Shown: piece by piece, positions 28,546 through 36,301 of the stretch | How the letters are laid out: each line of letters begins with the position of its first letter | Position numbering within the stretch: the stretch's first letter is position 1 | DNA from: Streptomyces sp. H27-C3 | GTDB lineage: Bacteria > Actinomycetota > Actinomycetes > Streptomycetales > Streptomycetaceae | Assembly (NCBI RefSeq): GCF_030063415.1 | Contig: NZ_JASITA010000004.1 | Location: 1 to 64,000, forward strand | Direction: 5' to 3' | Length of the DNA: 64,000 bases | The notes under the pieces: model-generated | The model's input: only the letters and a program-made list of their open reading frames with translations | What the model was told of the DNA's origin: nothing | Databases searched by the model: none | Translations under genes and position numbers: made by a program

Positions 28546-29022
28546 GAGCCCATTGTGCCGCGCGGTACGCGGAGCATGCCTGCTGTCTTGGGAGGTGGAC
28601 GGGCGGGGAATCGCCCGGGTCACCGGGCCTGTGGCCACACGAGCCGTTCGCCACCACCCCCGAGGCGCGCGCTGCTCGTGAGGCGGGCGAACCAAGGGAA
28701 GCGGCCGAGGCCATGGCACCGATGGGTGTCACTCTCCCCGCTGAGGACGTACACGCGTTCATCTCCGGGCCGGCCATCGTCGTTGACGCGATCGCGCTCA
28801 CTGTCGCCCGATGGAGGAGGAGAAAGCCGTAGTCCTGGTGCTGATGAGGGTGCGCGCGGACGCCGCGAAGAAGCTGATCTCGCACATCTCCGTCGGGACA
28901 CACGTCCCGGGTTGATCACGGCGATGTAGCGGACATTGGGACTGTCCGCTACATCGGGTCAGCAGCCATCTTTACTCGCCATGGGATAGATCGGAAGAGC
29001 TCAGTACCGGTCATAGCGGTGT
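28546..29022. other. Intergenic debris region beside the Rhs immunity gene
   Basis: This 477-bp stretch has no complete recognisable gene. On the plus strand a reading frame is open from about 28569 to a TAG at 28830, with coding-like third-position GC and the ending ALTVARWRRRKP; only an internal ATG (28713) is available, so it looks like a gene fragment. A second short frame (28811-28915, MEEEKAVVLVLMRV) overlaps it. Beyond lie a perfect 14-bp inverted repeat (28922-28956) and a 15-base string identical to a sequencing adapter (28988-29002). Confidence 0.5.
28922..28956. terminator. Perfect 14-bp inverted repeat
   Basis: CGATGTAGCGGACA (28922-28935) and TGTCCGCTACATCG (28943-28956) are exact reverse complements separated by 7 nt (TTGGGAC). 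It lies 66 bp past the stop of the immunity gene on the minus strand, so a terminator for the Rhs operon is the simplest reading; no U-tract follows. A recombination or protein-binding site is possible. Confidence 0.6.
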
Positions 29023-29568
29023 TCACGACGCGAGAATGTCGTCGTTGGAGTCGAACTCATGCTCATCAGGGGGAAATTCGTCGAAGTAAATCGTGTCGGC
29101 TTCCCCGGTGAGAACGGAGAGGAGGAAGTGTGCGCAGGGGTGGGGGTGGTATTCCCATTCCGGGCCTCGGCCCTCGTTGAACAGAGTGGTCCACTCCTCC
29201 GGCTTCTGCCCCGGCCGGCGGAGCCAGTACAGCATGGCGCCGCTGCCCTCGATATAGGCCCAGGGCAGCACCTCGGCCCCGTCGCCTCCCAGCAGTTGCG
29301 GGGGTTTGGGCTCATTTTCCCACAAGTTGGCCAGGATCTTCGCGCATTCCCTGGCCTGGTCGAGGAGGTTGTAGCCCTGGTCAGGGCATTCGGGGTCGAG
29401 GAGCCAGATGGTCTCGTCGAAGACTCCGCCTCCGTAGGTCTCGACGAGTTCCTTGTAGTCCTGCGGCAGGGCGGTGCCGAGCTGCTGCTCTACGGCGGCC
29501 CAGTCCCGTGAGCGGCGGGGGCTGGTAGGAGGAACGAGCACGGTAAGGCGTTCAACGGCGGGGTGCAT
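29023..29568 (-). CDS. SMI1/KNR4 (SUKH) family immunity protein
   Basis: A 181-residue soluble protein with the SUKH signature near its start (LPQDYKELVETYGGGVFDE) and later WAYIEGSGAMLYWLRR. SUKH proteins are established immunity proteins for polymorphic nuclease toxins. It sits 27 bp downstream of the Rhs toxin gene on the same strand, the standard toxin-then-immunity order, so it very likely neutralises the toxin tail encoded next to it. Confidence 0.85.
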   Translation of the reverse strand: MHPAVERLTVLVPPTSPRRSRDWAAVEQQLGTALPQDYKELVETYGGGVFDETIWLLDPECPDQGYNLLDQARECAKILANLWENEPKPPQLLGGDGAEVLPWAYIEGSGAMLYWLRRPGQKPEEWTTLFNEGRGPEWEYHPHPCAHFLLSVLTGEADTIYFDEFPPDEHEFDSNDDILAS

Positions 29569-29595
29569 CTGGATTGGCGTCCTTTCTCTGTGGTG

Positions 29596-32500
29596 TTACG
29601 CGGGCTTGGGGACGTTCAGGATAGTGAGGGTGTTGACGCTCTCGCCGCCTTCGTAGGGGGTGAAGGAGAAGCCCTTGTTTCCTCTGGCCTCCAGCGTGAG
29701 CGCGAGGGGGACGACATCGCTCGGGTCGTTGGTCCGGTAGATGGGTGTGACTTTGTAGTCGATGGTCTCACCAGTCCTGTCGACCGCCCTTCTGATCTGG
29801 TCTTCGATATGCTTCATGACCGGCGTGTTGGCATTTCGGTGCATGGTGACGAAGTTACGTAGGTCCTTGTTGGAGCCGCCGATCTGGGCACCCAGCAGGT
29901 GGGTTTTGTGGAGTTCCTTGTACTTCTGGTATCCGGGGATCATCTTGGGGGGTCTCGTTACCCCTCCCGTCATGTCTGCTTCGATCCGGGCGCTCATGCC
30001 GGTGGCACGTCCGCCCGGGCCGGGAGCGCCGTACTGAACGCGGCCACCCCAGGTGACGTCGGCCTCGTCGCAGGGTGAGAGCCCCAGCGGGTCCGCCTGA
30101 GTGTGCGGGTTGTCGACGTAGGCGGCGGGGTTCGGCGCCGGGTCGATTCCCAGCGGGTCCAGCGTGAGGTAGCGGCCCGTCTCCGGGTCGTAGTGGCGGA
30201 AGTAGTTGTGATGCAGGCCTGTTTCCGGGTCGTAGTACTGGCCCGGGAAGCGCAGAGGGGTGTAGGCGGTGGCGTCATGGTTCCACGCGGTGGCGCCCCA
30301 GAGGGTGCTTCGGGCGCGCCAGGCGATGGTGCCGTCTTCGTCGACGAGCTCGGTGGGAGTGCCGATCTGGTCGCTGACGATGGCGAAGAACCGCTGGTCG
30401 ATGACCTGTTGTGGCGCCTGGACCAGGGACTTCGTCTCCGTCTGGGAAAGCGGCGCGAGCCCGTCGTGGTCCCAGGTGAGGGTGATCAGTTCGGGCGATT
30501 CGGTGACCTGGGTTGTCTGTTCGGTGAGGGTGCTGCCGTCCCAGGTGAAGCGGGTCTGCTCGGCGATGCTTCCGTCGGCGGCGAGCCGCTGTTTGGCGAT
30601 GCGGCGCCCGAGTGGGTCGTACACATAGCGCCACTGGGTGCCGTCCGGGGTGGTGGCGGAGGTGAGGCGGTCCTCGGCATCCCACGTGTAGCGCCAGATG
30701 TCTGGCTTGCGCGACAGGCGCCGCTTGCGCCGCAGGATGGTGCGCCCTGCTGCGTCGTATTCAAAGTGGGTATTTCCGGCGCTCGTCAGGTGGGTGCCCC
30801 GGTAGGCGCGCGGGCCTTGGGACTGGTCTCCGGGGTGCTGATCCGGCCATGACGCGTGGGTCTGGTTGCCCGCGTCGTCGTAGGCGTAGGTCTCGGTCCA
30901 GTTCGCCGCGTTGACTCTGGTGACGCGCCCGGCCTGGTCGAGGGTGAAGGTGCGCCGGCCGGTGTCCTGGTCGCTGGTCGCGGTCAGATGGCCGTCCTCG
31001 CGGTGCGTGAATGTCCGCTGGATCTGCGGTCGGGTACGGCCGGCCACGGTGAGGGTCTGGCCGGCGACATGGCCCTGCCCGTCCCAGGCGAACGCGAGGG
31101 AGAAGCGATCGCCCAGACTTCGCTGGATCTCGCGGCCTGCCGCGTCATGCTGGAGGGAGAAGACGCGGCCCGCCACGGTGAGGTCTTCGTAGCTGCCGAC
31201 GCTGTCGTAGGAGTAGGCCGTCGTGACGCCGGCGGGCGTGGTACGGCCGGTGCGGCGCCCCGCAGCGTCGCAGGAGGTGGCAAGCGTGTGGCCGTCGATC
31301 AACTGGGCAACGACGCGGCCGACGGCGTCATACTGGAACTCCAGGGAGCAGTCAGGGCTGATGGCTCTCAGCAGGCGGCCACACAGGTCGTTCTCGAAGG
31401 CGGTGACCTGGCTGTCGATGGTCTTCTCGACCATCTGACCGATCGAGTCGTAGCGGTAGGTGATGATCTGCCCGGCGGAGTTGGTGTTCCGGGTGAGCCG
31501 TCCGTTGGCGTCGTACTCGTAGGCCCTGGTGTGGTCGTCGAAGTCGGTCTCCTCGACGAGCTGCCCGGCGGGGTCAAAGCGGTAGGCCCACGTCAGGCCC
31601 TGCGGGTTGGTGACGGCTGTCAGCCGTAGCTCGGCGTCGTAGGCGAAGGTATGGCGTGTCCCGTCCGGGCCGGTCTGGGCCGTCAGCAGATCGAAGTGGC
31701 TGTAGTCGGAGCGGAGCGTCCCGCCGAGCGGATCGGTGTGCAGGACGCAGTTGCCCTCGCCGTCGAATGCCCACGTTTCCCTCGCGCCATCGGGACCTGT
31801 GCGCGACAAGAGCTGGCCCTCGACCGACCATGTCAGGCGGGTCAACCCGCCCCCAGGGCCGGCGGTCGCCACGACGCGCCCGAAAGCGTCGTACTCGTGG
31901 TGGCTCACAGCGCCCGAGGCGACGGTGACGGTTACGGGCAGTCCGGCCTCGTTGCAGACGGCCTCTACACGCCCACCGAGCGGGTCGGTGACGGCCTGGA
32001 CCGTGCCGCAGGCGCCGATGGTGTAGCGCGTCGTCTCCCCGCTGGGGTCGGTCAGGGCGGTGCAGTTGCCCACCTCGTCGTAGGCGTACTGCCACGAAGT
32101 GCCGTCGGGTAGCTCCACCGTCGTGGCGAGGTTGAGGTTGTTGTAGGTGAAGCGGGTGGTGCCGCCATCGGGCCGGGTCGCCTTCAGGGGCATGCCCAGA
32201 TCGTTGCTTTCGAGCCTCGTCGTGTGCCCGAGCTGGTCCGTTGAGGCGATCACGTGCTGGTGGGCGTCGTAGTTCGTGATGACGGTGTCGCCCACCGGGT
32301 CGATCTCGGCAATGATCAGACAGACATCGTTGATGACGTAACGGAACGTGGCGCCTGCGGCGCTGGTGACCTCGGTGACGCGACAGTCGGGCCAAGCCGG
32401 ATGGGCGCTGTCGTAGGTGAAGGTGTTCGCCATATGCCCGGCCTCGCCGCCCTGGGCGATGCAGCGGTCCTGGTCGTCATAGCTGTAGTCGTAGCGACTG

Positions 32501-34254
32501 TGGTTGGTGTCTTGCCAGGACGTGATGCGCAGGTTTTCGTCGTAGATCAACCGGAGTGGCAGACCGGATGAATTGGTGACGGCGGTGAGGTTACCGTCGG
32601 TGTAGCCGTACTGCTTAATGGTGGCGTCGGAGCCGTCTTCGGAGCCCCTCGCGAGCTTGAGATGGGTCAGTCGACCGTCGTTTACAGTGATCTTGAGGTG
32701 GTATCCGCCGCTGTGGCGGATACCGAGCGGGGTGCCCTCGGGATCGTAGTCGAAGTCGACCGTGTTGCCGTTGCGGTCAGATATTCGCTCGAGGAGCGCC
32801 AGTCCGCCGGCGGGCGGAGCGAACCGGCGGCTGTGTCCGGTGAGGGGGTCGTCGATCCGGTATCCGCCGTCGTCCAGGTAGGACAGCGCCCAGCAGGGCC
32901 CAGCCTCAGGCAGAACTCGGGCATCGGGCGACTCGGGGTGAGGATACGCAAGCAGCATGCCGTCTTCGGTGACGAAGACGACGCCTTCTTCATCGATTTC
33001 GAGGCGTTGGTCGATGGTCGATGACCAACTGGGGCCGAACCAAAAGCCGGTGCGGTAATCGGAGGCGGCACGTCGGCTGAAGGTCAGCGGGAGGGTTCCG
33101 GGCAGAGTGATATCGGTCTGGGCGAGGAACATCTGCCCCGTTGCCGCGTCAACGGGGTCGCCGCAGCCCTTGATCTTGGTCTTGAACCGGTTGTACGCGC
33201 CCCTCGCGCCGTCGGCGATCGACCCGCGCGCGGACTTGGTCAGACCGAGCACGGACTTGCCCATGGCCTTCATGCCGCCGCGCGCCACCGCGAGACCGCC
33301 CTTGAGGCCCTTGGCGAGTCCGCCGAGGGTGGTCAGCCCCTTCATCCCCGGGATGCAGTCCAGCGCGGCGAACGCCACATCCCACAGGGATGCTTCGCCC
33401 TTGCGGTACTTGTTGAGTGTGTCCGCGAGGACCACGAGAGCCGCGGCGAGGACGATCAGCGCGATCGGCCCGCCGATGATCATCGCGACGATGCCCAGGA
33501 CCGCGACGACGACCTTGCAGACGGCGACGATGGTGTCCCAGTTGTCGGTGACCCAGTCCCCGACCTCCTCCCACCACTTCCGGTTCTGAATCCCCGCGTC
33601 GGAAGCCTCGTCGAGCTTGTCCTTCGTCTCCTTGGCGGCGTCCTCACGCATCTTGCGGGCATCGGCGGCCATCTTCTTCGCCGCGTCCAACGCACTGTTC
33701 GCCGACGACACATCCGACTTCGCCGCACCCTGGGCGCTCTTCGCGGACTGCGCGTTACGGGTGGCCGCCCGCACCTTGTCCTCATCAGGCTTCGGCGTGC
33801 CCTTCTTCTCCTTGTCCTTCTGGAAGTCCTCGGACTCCTTCGTCGCCCGCCCCACCCACGAATCGGCGTCCGTCAACCGGGTGGTCGCCGACTTCAAGTC
33901 CGCCTGCGCCGCACGCCCGTTCACCAGAGCCTTGTCCGCCAACGCCTGCGCCCGCTCCAGCTTCGGCCAGTACGCCGCCAACGCGTCCCCGGCCATCCCG
34001 TAGGACTTCTCCAACTTCCTCAGATGCTTCGGAACATCCTCGAACTCATCCTGGAACGCCTCCGCGGACTTCCCCGCCCACTTCAGGACCGCTTCCTCAC
34101 TGGCCATCCCCTTGACCAGCCGCAACGCATCCGACACATCATCAGCAAAATCCTGCAACTCCCGCGACAGGGACTTCACCCGCAGCGGATCACCCGGCGC
34201 CGGATCCGACTCCAGATCCAACACATGCCAATCACCCGGCCGATTCGCCGCCAT
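29596..34254 (-). CDS. Rhs/YD-repeat polymorphic toxin with C-terminal nuclease-like domain
   Basis: A 1552-residue contact-dependent-type toxin. The N-terminal roughly 250 residues are helical with a WXG-like segment (KWAGKSAEAFQDEF) and long Ala/Lys coiled coil, typical of type VII-secreted actinobacterial toxins. A hydrophobic pair of helices follows (VLGIVAMIIGGPIALIVLAA). A DUF6531 domain (GDPVDAATGQMFLAQTDI) leads into many YD repeats (YRYDSIGQM, YAYDDAGNQ) and the Rhs core end YYDPETGLHHNYFRHYDPE / YLTLDPLG. The variable tail of about 160 residues contains HKTHLLGAQIGGSN, DLRNFVTMHRNANTPVM and YKVTPIY, resembling DNA/RNA non-specific (His-Me finger) endonucleases; His about 1452 would be catalytic. 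ATG at 34254. Confidence 0.88.
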   Translation of the reverse strand: MAANRPGDWHVLDLESDPAPGDPLRVKSLSRELQDFADDVSDALRLVKGMASEEAVLKWAGKSAEAFQDEFEDVPKHLRKLEKSYGMAGDALAAYWPKLERAQALADKALVNGRAAQADLKSATTRLTDADSWVGRATKESEDFQKDKEKKGTPKPDEDKVRAATRNAQSAKSAQGAAKSDVSSANSALDAAKKMAADARKMREDAAKETKDKLDEASDAGIQNRKWWEEVGDWVTDNWDTIVAVCKVVVAVLGIVAMIIGGPIALIVLAAALVVLADTLNKYRKGEASLWDVAFAALDCIPGMKGLTTLGGLAKGLKGGLAVARGGMKAMGKSVLGLTKSARGSIADGARGAYNRFKTKIKGCGDPVDAATGQMFLAQTDITLPGTLPLTFSRRAASDYRTGFWFGPSWSSTIDQRLEIDEEGVVFVTEDGMLLAYPHPESPDARVLPEAGPCWALSYLDDGGYRIDDPLTGHSRRFAPPAGGLALLERISDRNGNTVDFDYDPEGTPLGIRHSGGYHLKITVNDGRLTHLKLARGSEDGSDATIKQYGYTDGNLTAVTNSSGLPLRLIYDENLRITSWQDTNHSRYDYSYDDQDRCIAQGGEAGHMANTFTYDSAHPAWPDCRVTEVTSAAGATFRYVINDVCLIIAEIDPVGDTVITNYDAHQHVIASTDQLGHTTRLESNDLGMPLKATRPDGGTTRFTYNNLNLATTVELPDGTSWQYAYDEVGNCTALTDPSGETTRYTIGACGTVQAVTDPLGGRVEAVCNEAGLPVTVTVASGAVSHHEYDAFGRVVATAGPGGGLTRLTWSVEGQLLSRTGPDGARETWAFDGEGNCVLHTDPLGGTLRSDYSHFDLLTAQTGPDGTRHTFAYDAELRLTAVTNPQGLTWAYRFDPAGQLVEETDFDDHTRAYEYDANGRLTRNTNSAGQIITYRYDSIGQMVEKTIDSQVTAFENDLCGRLLRAISPDCSLEFQYDAVGRVVAQLIDGHTLATSCDAAGRRTGRTTPAGVTTAYSYDSVGSYEDLTVAGRVFSLQHDAAGREIQRSLGDRFSLAFAWDGQGHVAGQTLTVAGRTRPQIQRTFTHREDGHLTATSDQDTGRRTFTLDQAGRVTRVNAANWTETYAYDDAGNQTHASWPDQHPGDQSQGPRAYRGTHLTSAGNTHFEYDAAGRTILRRKRRLSRKPDIWRYTWDAEDRLTSATTPDGTQWRYVYDPLGRRIAKQRLAADGSIAEQTRFTWDGSTLTEQTTQVTESPELITLTWDHDGLAPLSQTETKSLVQAPQQVIDQRFFAIVSDQIGTPTELVDEDGTIAWRARSTLWGATAWNHDATAYTPLRFPGQYYDPETGLHHNYFRHYDPETGRYLTLDPLGIDPAPNPAAYVDNPHTQADPLGLSPCDEADVTWGGRVQYGAPGPGGRATGMSARIEADMTGGVTRPPKMIPGYQKYKELHKTHLLGAQIGGSNKDLRNFVTMHRNANTPVMKHIEDQIRRAVDRTGETIDYKVTPIYRTNDPSDVVPLALTLEARGNKGFSFTPYEGGESVNTLTILNVPKPA

Positions 34255-34616
34255 CACGCATCCCCCGTCACACCCGAACCACAACCACCAGCAACCGCAC
34301 GTATGAGCGAAGTTACTAGGTCCGGGTTCGCGGCGCGAAGAGCGCCCCACTTCTCAGAGCGGGAGATCAGATCGCCGCGCCGAAGGGGCGGGTGCACGAA
34401 GCCGCACATCCGATCCCATAGCCAATGCGAGCGATCAGACACAGGATCTCCACGCCATGCCCTCAGATGCGCCCAAGTGTCCTGGGCCACACGCGCTCTG
34501 TCCGCTTTCGCCCGCATCGATCCACAAGACAAGTCAGTTCGCTCTGGCGAAACCACGGACCCCATGGATAACGTCGTTTCTCTTGACTGATCCGTTGTCT
34601 CAACCCGGAGTTGCCT
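34255..34616. other. 362-bp intergenic region between Rhs and lipoprotein genes
   Basis: It should contain the divergent promoters of the Rhs operon and of the lipoprotein/secreted-protein pair. Third-position statistics are mixed and no family is recognisable on either strand, although the minus strand is open with protein-like sequence (LISRSEKWGALRAANPDLV). CGGAG at 34606-34610 is the ribosome binding site of the lipoprotein gene. Confidence 0.4.
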
Positions 34617-35270
34617 GTGAAGCGCCGTACCTTGCCCGCTGCTGCCGCGTTCGCCGCAACCGCAGCACTCTTGCTGACGGCCTGTGGCAACGGCGACGAG
34701 AAGCCAGAAGCCGACGGCAAGATCGCGGGCGCGGAACAGGGCGACAAGACGTCGGCCTCGCCCAGCGCCACACCATCGGACGCCGCCGGTCGTCCCAAGA
34801 TCGAGCTTCCTGCGGACATCAAGTACATCTTTGACTGGTCCAGAACAGGCGATAAGAACAAGGACACTGTTCTGAACGACGGCGAACAGTTCATCAAGGC
34901 CACGGACATGGCCATCGCCGAGCAGGACCCGCAGCACCAGGCCTACTCCTTCTACTCCGAAGGAGAGATTTCAGCGACCACGCAGACATACGTCCAAGCA
35001 CACGTGGACAGAAAGATCCGGACCACGGGGACTTATCGCTTCTACGATGCCACCGTGTCCCTCAACAAGGACAGCACTGCCTCTCTCATTTACTGCGAGG
35101 ACCAGAGCAAGGCATTCGGAAAGAGCATCAAGACTGGAAAGATCGACAAAACTCCCGTCACAGAGAAGAGCTATGTCCTTTACAACACCACATTGAGGAA
35201 AAATAGGCAGGACATCTGGGTCACCACGAAGATGTTCATGCAAAGGGGGAACACGAAGTGCCAGCCCTGA
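34617..35270 (+). CDS. Putative lipoprotein
   Basis: 217 residues. The signal peptide RTLPAAAAFAATAALLLTAC ends in a lipobox, with the lipidated Cys at about residue 22, followed by a Lys/Asp/Ser-rich spacer. The mature domain (about 150 residues) is an SnoaL/NTF2-like mixed fold by appearance (GTYRFYDATVSLNKDSTASLIYCEDQ, then VLYNTTLRKNRQDIWVTTKMF). GTG at 34617 is six bases after CGGAG; a TTG two codons earlier is an alternative. It overlaps the next gene by 13 bp, so the two are one transcript. Function not recognised. Confidence 0.75.
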   Translation: MKRRTLPAAAAFAATAALLLTACGNGDEKPEADGKIAGAEQGDKTSASPSATPSDAAGRPKIELPADIKYIFDWSRTGDKNKDTVLNDGEQFIKATDMAIAEQDPQHQAYSFYSEGEISATTQTYVQAHVDRKIRTTGTYRFYDATVSLNKDSTASLIYCEDQSKAFGKSIKTGKIDKTPVTEKSYVLYNTTLRKNRQDIWVTTKMFMQRGNTKCQP

Positions 35271-36301
35271 TTCTCAAGAAAATAGCCGCAGTCGCTCTCG
35301 TCGCCAGCACGAGTTTTTCACTTACCCCATCCCTTGCGATGGCTGACGACCCCCTGAACCAGTCGCCCCCAACGCCGACAAACAATCCCTCAGCCGATGT
35401 CGACGGCCGAGAACTCTCGGTCAAAGCTGGCGGCGTTGTCTACGACCGCTCCAAGAACGGCAAGGGAACCAACGCGGGTCCCGTCGCCGCCGCCGGTAAC
35501 TGGACGCCGCCTGCGTGCTGGTACGCCCCGAAGTACAGCCCCGATCAGCTCAAGAAGACCGTGGAGCCTATCTGGGCAGCCGAATCCACCGGCTACGAGT
35601 GGGAGGCCACCCAGCGAAAGCGCTACGTGGAAGGCGTCCCCTACAAGGATTTCAACGCCGAGAAGACCGGCAAGGGTTACTGGTGGGACTCCTACGTCAA
35701 CATGGCCCGCATCGGTGAACCCGGCGCGCTCGCCTGCAACAAGCCCTACTTCTGGGTCGACACCGGCGAGCCGCCGCCCGCCGACGTTCCCGAGGCCATC
35801 ACCCCGGAAATACTCGCCCAGCTCGCCTATGCCGAAGTCCGCGTACCCGACACCGAGATCGCACTCGCGCCCGCAGCCAACACCAAGGTCAACCTGCCCA
35901 CTTGGGCGTGGCTCGACAAAGCCGAGTTCAAGCCCGTCTCCGTCACCGCGTCGGTCCCCGTCCTGAACCTCGAAGCCACCGCCACAGCCACCCCGCATTC
36001 CCTCCGGATCGAGCCCGGCACCAAGGACGCCGTGCTTCACCCCGCCTCCGGCGAGTGCCCCATTAACGGTGACGGGTCCATCGGGACGCCGTTCGCCAAG
36101 GGCTCCGCCAACGAGACCCCGCCCTGCGGGCTCACCTACCTCCGCGCCTCCGGCGACGGCGCGTACAAGCTCCAGGCCACCATCACCTGGAAGATCACCT
36201 GGGGCGGCACCGGAGACCCAGGACCGAACAACCTCCCCGACGGCACCTTCGGCACCACCCAGGACATCACCGTCCAGGAAATCCAGGCCATCAACCGCTG
36301 A
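35258..36301 (+). CDS. Secreted protein of unknown function
   Basis: 347 residues with a Sec signal peptide (ILKKIAAVALVASTSFSLTPSLAMA, cleavage near residue 29). The mature part is Trp/Tyr-rich with NWTPPACWYAPKYSPDQLKK, KGYWWDSYVNMARIG and a C-terminal beta-rich segment (LQATITWKITWGGTG); cysteines are paired. GTG start with GGGGGA upstream. Translationally coupled to the lipoprotein. In streptomycetes such pairs occur near type VII-secreted proteins (recollection, not checked), so a role at the cell surface with the Rhs system is possible but unproven. Confidence 0.72.
   Translation: MPALILKKIAAVALVASTSFSLTPSLAMADDPLNQSPPTPTNNPSADVDGRELSVKAGGVVYDRSKNGKGTNAGPVAAAGNWTPPACWYAPKYSPDQLKKTVEPIWAAESTGYEWEATQRKRYVEGVPYKDFNAEKTGKGYWWDSYVNMARIGEPGALACNKPYFWVDTGEPPPADVPEAITPEILAQLAYAEVRVPDTEIALAPAANTKVNLPTWAWLDKAEFKPVSVTASVPVLNLEATATATPHSLRIEPGTKDAVLHPASGECPINGDGSIGTPFAKGSANETPPCGLTYLRASGDGAYKLQATITWKITWGGTGDPGPNNLPDGTFGTTQDITVQEIQAINR

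Follow-up and report, generated by a model that had tools for sequence, protein, structure and literature searches.

What does a large Rhs protein with a nuclease-like tail and an altered catalytic motif do, what protects its producer, and by which machine would it leave the cell? These questions are raised by positions 29023–34254 of a 64,000-nt stretch of DNA (the window, by which we mean the whole stretch analysed) from contig NZ_JASITA010000004.1 of Streptomyces sp. H27-C3, whose genome is coded G000 in a genus sample of 150 genomes that includes it. The interval comprises two minus-strand genes: an Rhs polymorphic toxin gene with an ATG start (1552 amino acids (aa); 29596–34254) and, downstream of it, a SUKH-family immunity gene, also with an ATG start (181 aa; 29023–29568). 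We read them as an antibacterial polymorphic toxin–immunity pair, in which an Rhs toxin exported by a type VII secretion system (T7SS) carries a NucA-type nuclease tail and is matched by SUKH immunity, and we put the probability of this reading at roughly 0.88.

Gene layout and toxin architecture

The two genes are separated by exactly 27 base pairs (bp; 29569–29595), and the toxin frame stays open for 32 codons beyond its ATG, to a GTG at 34350; frame 1 of the plus strand is interrupted by stop codons across 29023–34254. The two-gene layout is confirmed as real, and chance is an unlikely source of it because other genomes hold homologues in the same arrangement. A first-pass annotation of this DNA had given both protein lengths and the gap exactly, and had left the strand unstated. 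The G+C content of 28–36 kb is 0.61–0.69, against 0.67–0.74 in the rest of the window.

The toxin call rests on the open frame, Pfam domains and the NCBIfam YD-repeat and Rhs_assc_core matches. Its N-terminal WXG/T7SS_signal leader (residues 1–230; 33565–34254, minus strand, as for all toxin features below) matches T7SS_signal (PF21725) over cut-off (29.8 bits; cut-off 27) and WXG100 below it (19.7 bits; cut-off 27.3), contains one W-x-G (WAG at residues 59–61) and has a near-copy in a second Rhs gene of the same genome, so that the WXG-like export region of the first-pass annotation holds by the former profile. Hydropathy gives a single hydrophobic, putatively membrane-associated stretch (residues 238–283; 33406–33543). 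This is followed by a DUF6531 domain (residues 365–437; 32944–33162; 80.7 bits), 17 RHS/YD stretches matching RHS_repeat (with an RHS Pfam match of 35.3 bits) and the end of the Rhs-associated core (residues 1318–1392; 30079–30303; TIGR03696, 69.4 bits), in which DPLGL, presumably the self-cleavage site, begins at residue 1388. As the core match stops at residue 1392, a tail of 160 residues remains, as annotated earlier together with the DUF6531/YD repeats; the three tail motifs quoted at that time, MHRNANTPV and YKVTPIY among them, are present. Leader, Rhs core and variable tail together make up the layout of a T7SS-exported Rhs polymorphic toxin.

Family, fold and conserved residues of the tail

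The exchangeable tail (residues 1393–1552; 29599–30078) scores as an Endonuclea_NS_2 nuclease. PF13930 (cut-off 27) reaches 62.7 bits on the whole toxin and 56.6 bits when the tail is scored by itself, and all 10 aligned tails match it at E ≤ 0.01; Endonuclease_NS (PF01223) falls just short on the window tail (22.7; cut-off 23), and an NCBIfam search matched neither the tail nor the SUKH protein. Searching the Protein Data Bank (PDB) with phmmer, the tail matched Streptococcus agalactiae NucA (4qgo, E 1e-4) and, weakly, Spd1 (2xgr) and 1ql0/1g8t (E 0.09–0.33), the last two of which we take to be Serratia nuclease. An AlphaFold model of the tail, built from 10 sequences, gave 15 Foldseek matches at E ≤ 0.001, all 15 of them chains of Spd1, NucA, EndA or Sda1. 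A beta-beta-alpha-metal (His-Me) nuclease fold is thereby supported as a prediction, in keeping with the earlier remark that the tail recalls His-Me finger nucleases, and what is predicted is a nuclease fold rather than an unrelated one. The further suggestion of a new nuclease subtype is not supported: the tail falls within an existing Pfam family by gathering score, and its PF13930 score together with the fold search rules out a new nuclease fold.

The catalytic positions are conserved across two alignments, one of 10 tails and one of 29 tails, the latter consisting of 30 genus-sample loci minus L004, whose tail is broken, with 11 of the 29 rows trimmed to begin no more than 40 residues ahead of the match. 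The predicted catalytic His1452 (tail H60; 29899–29901) is invariant in both (29/29 and 10/10), as are the first Asn, Asn1467 (tail N75), and Glu1484 (tail E92; 29803–29805). The predicted metal-binding Asn1476 (tail N84; 29827–29829) is kept in 10/10 and 28/29 tails, with Asp in L020, and the His-to-Asn spacing of 24 in the window tail matches the Spd1 alignment.

The immunity gene and its linkage to the tail

The 181-residue protein matches SMI1_KNR4 (PF09346, 29.9 bits; cut-off 25.4) and SUKH_6 (PF14568, 29.1 bits; cut-off 27), both over its N-terminal part only. Its AlphaFold model is confident (predicted local distance difference test (pLDDT) score 92.3). The best Foldseek match was the SMI1/KNR4 protein 3d5p, weak at E 0.044 (TM-score 0.53 by target length), followed by Syd (E 0.2), and a PDB sequence search with the SUKH protein returned chance-level matches only (best E 0.17). 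The structural prediction is suggestive of a SUKH fold, and linkage to the toxin is the stronger evidence for the immunity assignment.

A SUKH homologue lies downstream on the same strand, 18–150 bp away, in 10 of 10 named Streptomyces loci retrieved with the tail, and downstream of the tail in 23 of 29 genus-sample loci (window excluded), which bears out the SUKH partner proposed in the first-pass annotation and rules out chance linkage, though the six misses are real. Counted among the 23 are L004, in which the tail frame is broken and the SUKH gene lies 557 bp past the stop, and L028, whose tail continues in frame into a SUKH domain; here a second SUKH gene, truncated by the end of the locus, follows the fused frame at a distance of 568 bp. 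In L028 (G141:C1, about 115517–116275, minus strand) the tail and SUKH domain share a 748-aa frame, and the second SUKH gene occupies 114221–114733; candidate readings are a toxin–immunity fusion or a small-indel fusion at an overlapping stop/start of the kind present in L012, L013, L015 and L018.

Homologues of the immunity protein occur in 94 of 150 genomes and are also common without a linked tail. Some genomes that the tail query does not match, G095 and G058 among them, have a homologue of 57–70% identity, a pattern as expected of orphan immunity. At L041 (NZ_LIVX01000005.1, 5992–6929) an interrupted KTH-type tail remnant is followed by an intact SUKH gene; this is a displaced cassette with its immunity kept.

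As a separate observation, an exact 13-mer, GCTCTTCCGATCT, lies 22 bp past the immunity stop (28988–29000, minus strand). This adapter-like sequence corresponds to the 3' end of Illumina adapters; it is present as a single copy in the 8.0-Mb genome and is therefore due to chance or an assembly scar. Similarity to the loci of relatives stops at the immunity gene and so does not reach it.

Exchange of tails and leaders

A survey for alternative tails on the same core, proposed in the first-pass annotation, was made with a 179-residue query (19 core residues plus the tail), which matched 80 of the 150 genomes. Among the matches listed, 79 cover the core end alone (starting at query residue 1–4 and ending by residue 70), and 64 of these sit in open frames of 1300–1911 aa; by alignment, matches of this kind indicate that the core is joined to other tails. 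Exchange is seen at the other end of the protein as well. Among the 10 named loci, L037 aligns to the toxin from residue 85, where the locus begins at a contig edge, and L034 from residue 173. Four full-length frames with other N-termini (L035, L036, L038 and L043) align only from residue 340–365 on, as does L039, which is cut at a contig edge; L040 and L042 are shorter open frames, and L041 is the remnant described above. Judged from these alignments, the same tails occur on different leaders.

The genome of H27-C3 itself encodes two further proteins with this leader or its first 91 residues. In the second Rhs gene (C45:89678–92707) the core is 51% identical to that of the window toxin and the tail is an AHH nuclease (PF14412, 43.7 bits). 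In the third gene (179 aa), leader residues 1–91 (91% identical) are followed by a YwqJ-like deaminase domain (38.9 bits; cut-off 25.9). The leaders of the two Rhs genes are 92% identical as protein and 91.8% identical as DNA over 1022 bp, starting about 67 bp ahead of the ATG, and the single further alignable stretch beyond the leader is 905 bp at 74%. Such a mosaic of leader, core and tail is expected of polymorphic toxins. The second Rhs gene belongs to a second toxin island (L052; G000:C45:86000–105900) that comprises the Rhs-AHH gene, the WXG-YwqJ deaminase, a WXG100 gene, an EssC-like ATPase and a 453-aa WXG/T7SS_signal-like protein with matches below cut-off.

Proposed mechanism, the altered motif and alternative readings

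In the mechanism that we propose, the WXG-type leader would take the toxin to a type VII secretion machine, and the Rhs/YD-repeat region would enclose the tail, which would be cut free after DPLGL. The freed 160-residue Endonuclea_NS_2 (NucA-type) domain would enter a competitor and cut its DNA and/or RNA, with His1452 acting as general base, one metal ion held by Asn1476 and Glu1484 nearby, and the SUKH protein would bind this domain and block it in producer cells and their kin.

Several observations weigh against this account. The tail model is of moderate confidence (mean pLDDT 71.8), with values of 52–65 in the blocks holding the His and two Asn, and its 15 Foldseek matches have TM-scores of 0.38–0.53 by query length and root-mean-square deviations of at least 7.9; the topology of the tail is therefore supported and its atomic detail is not. 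The immunity model had zero Foldseek matches at E ≤ 0.001. Six of the 29 genus-sample loci (L006, L011, L014, L016, L017 and L020) lack a recognisable SUKH neighbour, so the concern that homologous tails might occur without one is borne out in part. Five of the six tails are distant (37–41% identity) and L006 is close (55%); tblastn over 12 kb at L006 found no SUKH gene (best E 1.3). L011, L014, L016 and L017 have a similar protein of 321–365 aa (MTRTTPxRPVD near its start) in the place of SUKH, a candidate alternative immunity family, and L020 has another protein. Finally, the window tail reads KTH: the R-G of the DRGH motif is replaced by K-T, with the catalytic His intact. The Arg of this motif contributes to catalysis in Serratia nuclease, and since Lys-Thr replaces Arg-Gly the activity of the KTH tail may be lowered.

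The lack of DRGH noted in the first-pass annotation is thus correct as regards R-G, but the catalytic His is in place and the change is shared by one clade. Across 38 tails (L004 and L041 omitted) the motif is RGH in 19, KTH in nine, RAH in seven, ALH in two and RTH in one. In a maximum-likelihood tree the nine KTH tails form one clade (support 99/97), sister to the lone RTH tail, and beyond these the closest tails carry RAH or, in one case, RGH; support is weak at several of the deeper forks, and some branches are long. L041, with its interrupted tail, was omitted from the tree as from the 10-tail alignment. The nesting of the KTH clade among RTH, RAH and RGH tails places the altered motif close to the tips within a family already known, and a mutation confined to the window is ruled out, as the nine tails of the clade share KTH.

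The same evidence bears on whether catalysis is weakened or lost in the KTH branch, which would then have kept the fold and act otherwise than by cutting, for example by binding nucleic acid, or be decaying. The R-to-K and G-to-T changes at the catalytic motif within a single clade, the moderate confidence of the model around the predicted active site and the interruption of L041, a further KTH relative, would all fit. Against this, the H, N, N and E are invariant in all 10 aligned tails, the motif position varies in other homologues too (RAH, RTH and ALH), and the nine tails of the well-supported clade have open frames with a SUKH neighbour in 9/9, which suggests that toxicity has been maintained; we consider a weakened or inactive branch improbable. 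That the Rhs protein acts mainly on its producer's own side, with a function at the surface or in the development of the mycelium and with SUKH acting as regulator, is the least credible reading, for although many genomes hold several leader-bearing copies and Rhs-like proteins do have other roles, tail exchange on a constant core, paired immunity genes, orphan immunity homologues and the lower G+C content of 28–36 kb are marks of conflict systems.

Export route

Export of the toxin by a T7SS is inferred from genomic co-occurrence. H27-C3 encodes a canonical EccC on contig C98 (870.8 bits, over cut-off), with EccD adjoining, and a second, EssC-like ATPase on C45. The latter lies about 7 kb from the second Rhs gene's leader and scores below cut-off with both the EssC (566.7 bits) and EccCa (423.1 bits) models. 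Co-occurrence was scored with cut-offs of E ≤ 1e-60 for the leader, E ≤ 1e-180 for the ATPase and E ≤ 1e-60 for the secreted protein described below, all set after the score lists had been viewed. A close leader is present in 30 of the 150 genomes and a close C45-type ATPase in 35: both occur in 29, the leader alone in one (G050, an 82% complete draft), the ATPase alone in six and neither in 114. The ATPase-only genomes include G099, which has leader pieces of 70–74% identity, and G001, which is 79% complete. Relaxing the ATPase cut to about E ≤ 1e-90 gives 29, 1, 34 and 86 for the same four classes. The ATPase query matches 150 of 150 genomes at least weakly, many in frames of canonical EccC length; canonical-type ATPases therefore do not discriminate.

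The sampled genomes are related, so that Fisher p-values for co-occurrence are not independent-sample probabilities, and physical linkage is better evidence than such statistics. In 19 of the 29 genomes with both, no more than 50 kb of one contig separates the ATPase from its nearest leader gene; in three of the other ten the two share a contig at distances of 64, 135 and 1177 kb, and in seven they share none. Common descent alone does not readily explain this linkage.

We compared 15 regions of about 15–20 kb around the ATPase, drawn from 14 of the 35 ATPase genomes (H27-C3 gives two that overlap). WXG/leader-like genes accompany the ATPase in 15/15, WXG100-like genes in 13/15 and a Ser/Thr kinase, whose identity was confirmed for one (128 bits), in 12/15. 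Part of the ATPase matches PF16697, which we take to be FHA-like, at 28.8, below the cut-off of 33.2. A large Ig-domain protein resembling TsdI, a component of the system T7SSd considered below, is absent from the gene groups shared by at least four of the 15 regions and could lie outside them. Because the FHA match is below cut-off and a TsdI-like protein is not among these groups, we describe the cluster, from its gene content, as T7SSd-like and do not claim membership.

The divergent, putatively accessory pair

Two genes on the plus strand diverge from the toxin: a lipoprotein gene (219 aa; 34611–35270), with homologues beside related toxins, and a gene for a secreted protein with a signal-like N-terminus (347 aa; 35258–36301), with homologues near leader genes. 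The genes overlap by 13 bp. Neither protein has a Pfam match at E ≤ 1, and the lipoprotein has weak, below-cut-off NCBIfam matches only. Lipoprotein homologues occur in 66 of 150 genomes, many weak and near 1e-4, and secreted-protein homologues in 51 at E ≤ 0.001. At E ≤ 1e-60 the secreted protein is present in 41 genomes: it accompanies the leader in 27 of 30 genomes and the C45-type ATPase in 31 of 35, and occurs without that ATPase in ten. Of 87 close leader genes, 20 have a copy no more than 6 kb away, 19 times on the 5' side of the toxin (11 divergent, eight on the same strand) and once convergent on the 3' side (G011). Most copies are farther than 6 kb from leader genes, and 39 of 119 are within 60 kb of the ATPase. 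A tblastn search found neither gene in the available flanks of the 10 named loci, of which four or more carry a different leader.

Taking linkage and co-occurrence together, there is in our judgement an even chance that the leader addresses its cargo to a distinct EssC-like (T7SSd-like) Streptomyces machine rather than canonical ESX/EccC, and that the 34611–36301 pair is an unnamed accessory of this pathway, perhaps acting in the envelope to deliver or anchor the toxin or to protect the producer at that level. A literature search over titles and the beginnings of abstracts found none assigning the cargo of this leader to a machine in Streptomyces. A near-identical leader on three different warheads, tracking one ATPase across the genus, offers a testable cargo-to-machine assignment, and it is this association, pointing to a little-described secretion machine, together with the accessory pair, that is worth following up.

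Comparison with known systems

The best structural matches to the tail, Spd1 (2xgr, 2xh3), NucA (4qgo), EndA (3owv) and Sda1 (5fgw), are free nucleases, not toxin tails with an immunity gene. They resemble it in predicted fold and, in the Spd1 alignment, in the order of catalytic residues, whereas Spd1 has RGH where the window tail has KTH.

A well-studied T7SS nuclease toxin is EsaD of the Staphylococcus aureus T7SSb, whose immunity protein EsaG deforms the nuclease (PMC10350083, PMC9616950). As described there, EsaD shares with the window toxin a C-terminal nuclease domain (IPR044927), a catalytic His (H528) and a downstream immunity gene, but has a helical N-terminus with PT-TG and, in the passages that describe it, no Rhs shell; its immunity protein is EsaG, not SUKH, and it belongs to a Bacillota T7SSb with dedicated EsxBCD/EsaE partners (PMC10350083). 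The differing downstream neighbours of some relatives of the window tail fit Tde5, a beta-beta-alpha-metal DNase toxin for which two structurally distinct immunity proteins are described (PMC13392607). For the purpose of comparing domains, we take IPR044927, the entry for the EsaD nuclease, to equal PF13930.

As to the machine, T7SSd is described as having five components, including WXG100, an FHA-bearing ATPase and a kinase, and is reported in Actinomycetota (Garrett et al. 2024, PMC11217815), with 0 occurrences of 'Streptomyc' in the main text. TsdI, as given there, has about 1650 aa, a Sec signal and Ig-like domains, and no such protein is among the conserved groups of the Streptomyces ATPase regions, which may differ from T7SSd in this respect; they resemble it in having WXG100, an EssC-like ATPase whose N-terminal region is putatively FHA-like, and a Ser/Thr kinase near Rhs/WXG substrates.

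The closest precedent for the toxin is Tox-NucA, tabulated by Zhang et al. (2012, PMC3482391) with conserved GH, N, N and E and with T7SS (WXG), RHS and Imm-SUKH associations in Actinobacteria among others. The window tail has the H, N, N and E of Tox-NucA in this sense, but T in the place of the G ahead of the catalytic His (KTH against GH in the table). By score it is filed under PF13930, and its motif makes it NucA-like rather than a strict Tox-NucA match. In its NucA-type tail, RHS repeats, T7SS/WXG export, SUKH immunity and actinobacterial spread, the architecture of the window toxin is the combination tabulated in 2012 (PMC3482391), and the toxin is one more cassette of that class with a tolerated change in the textbook catalytic motif.

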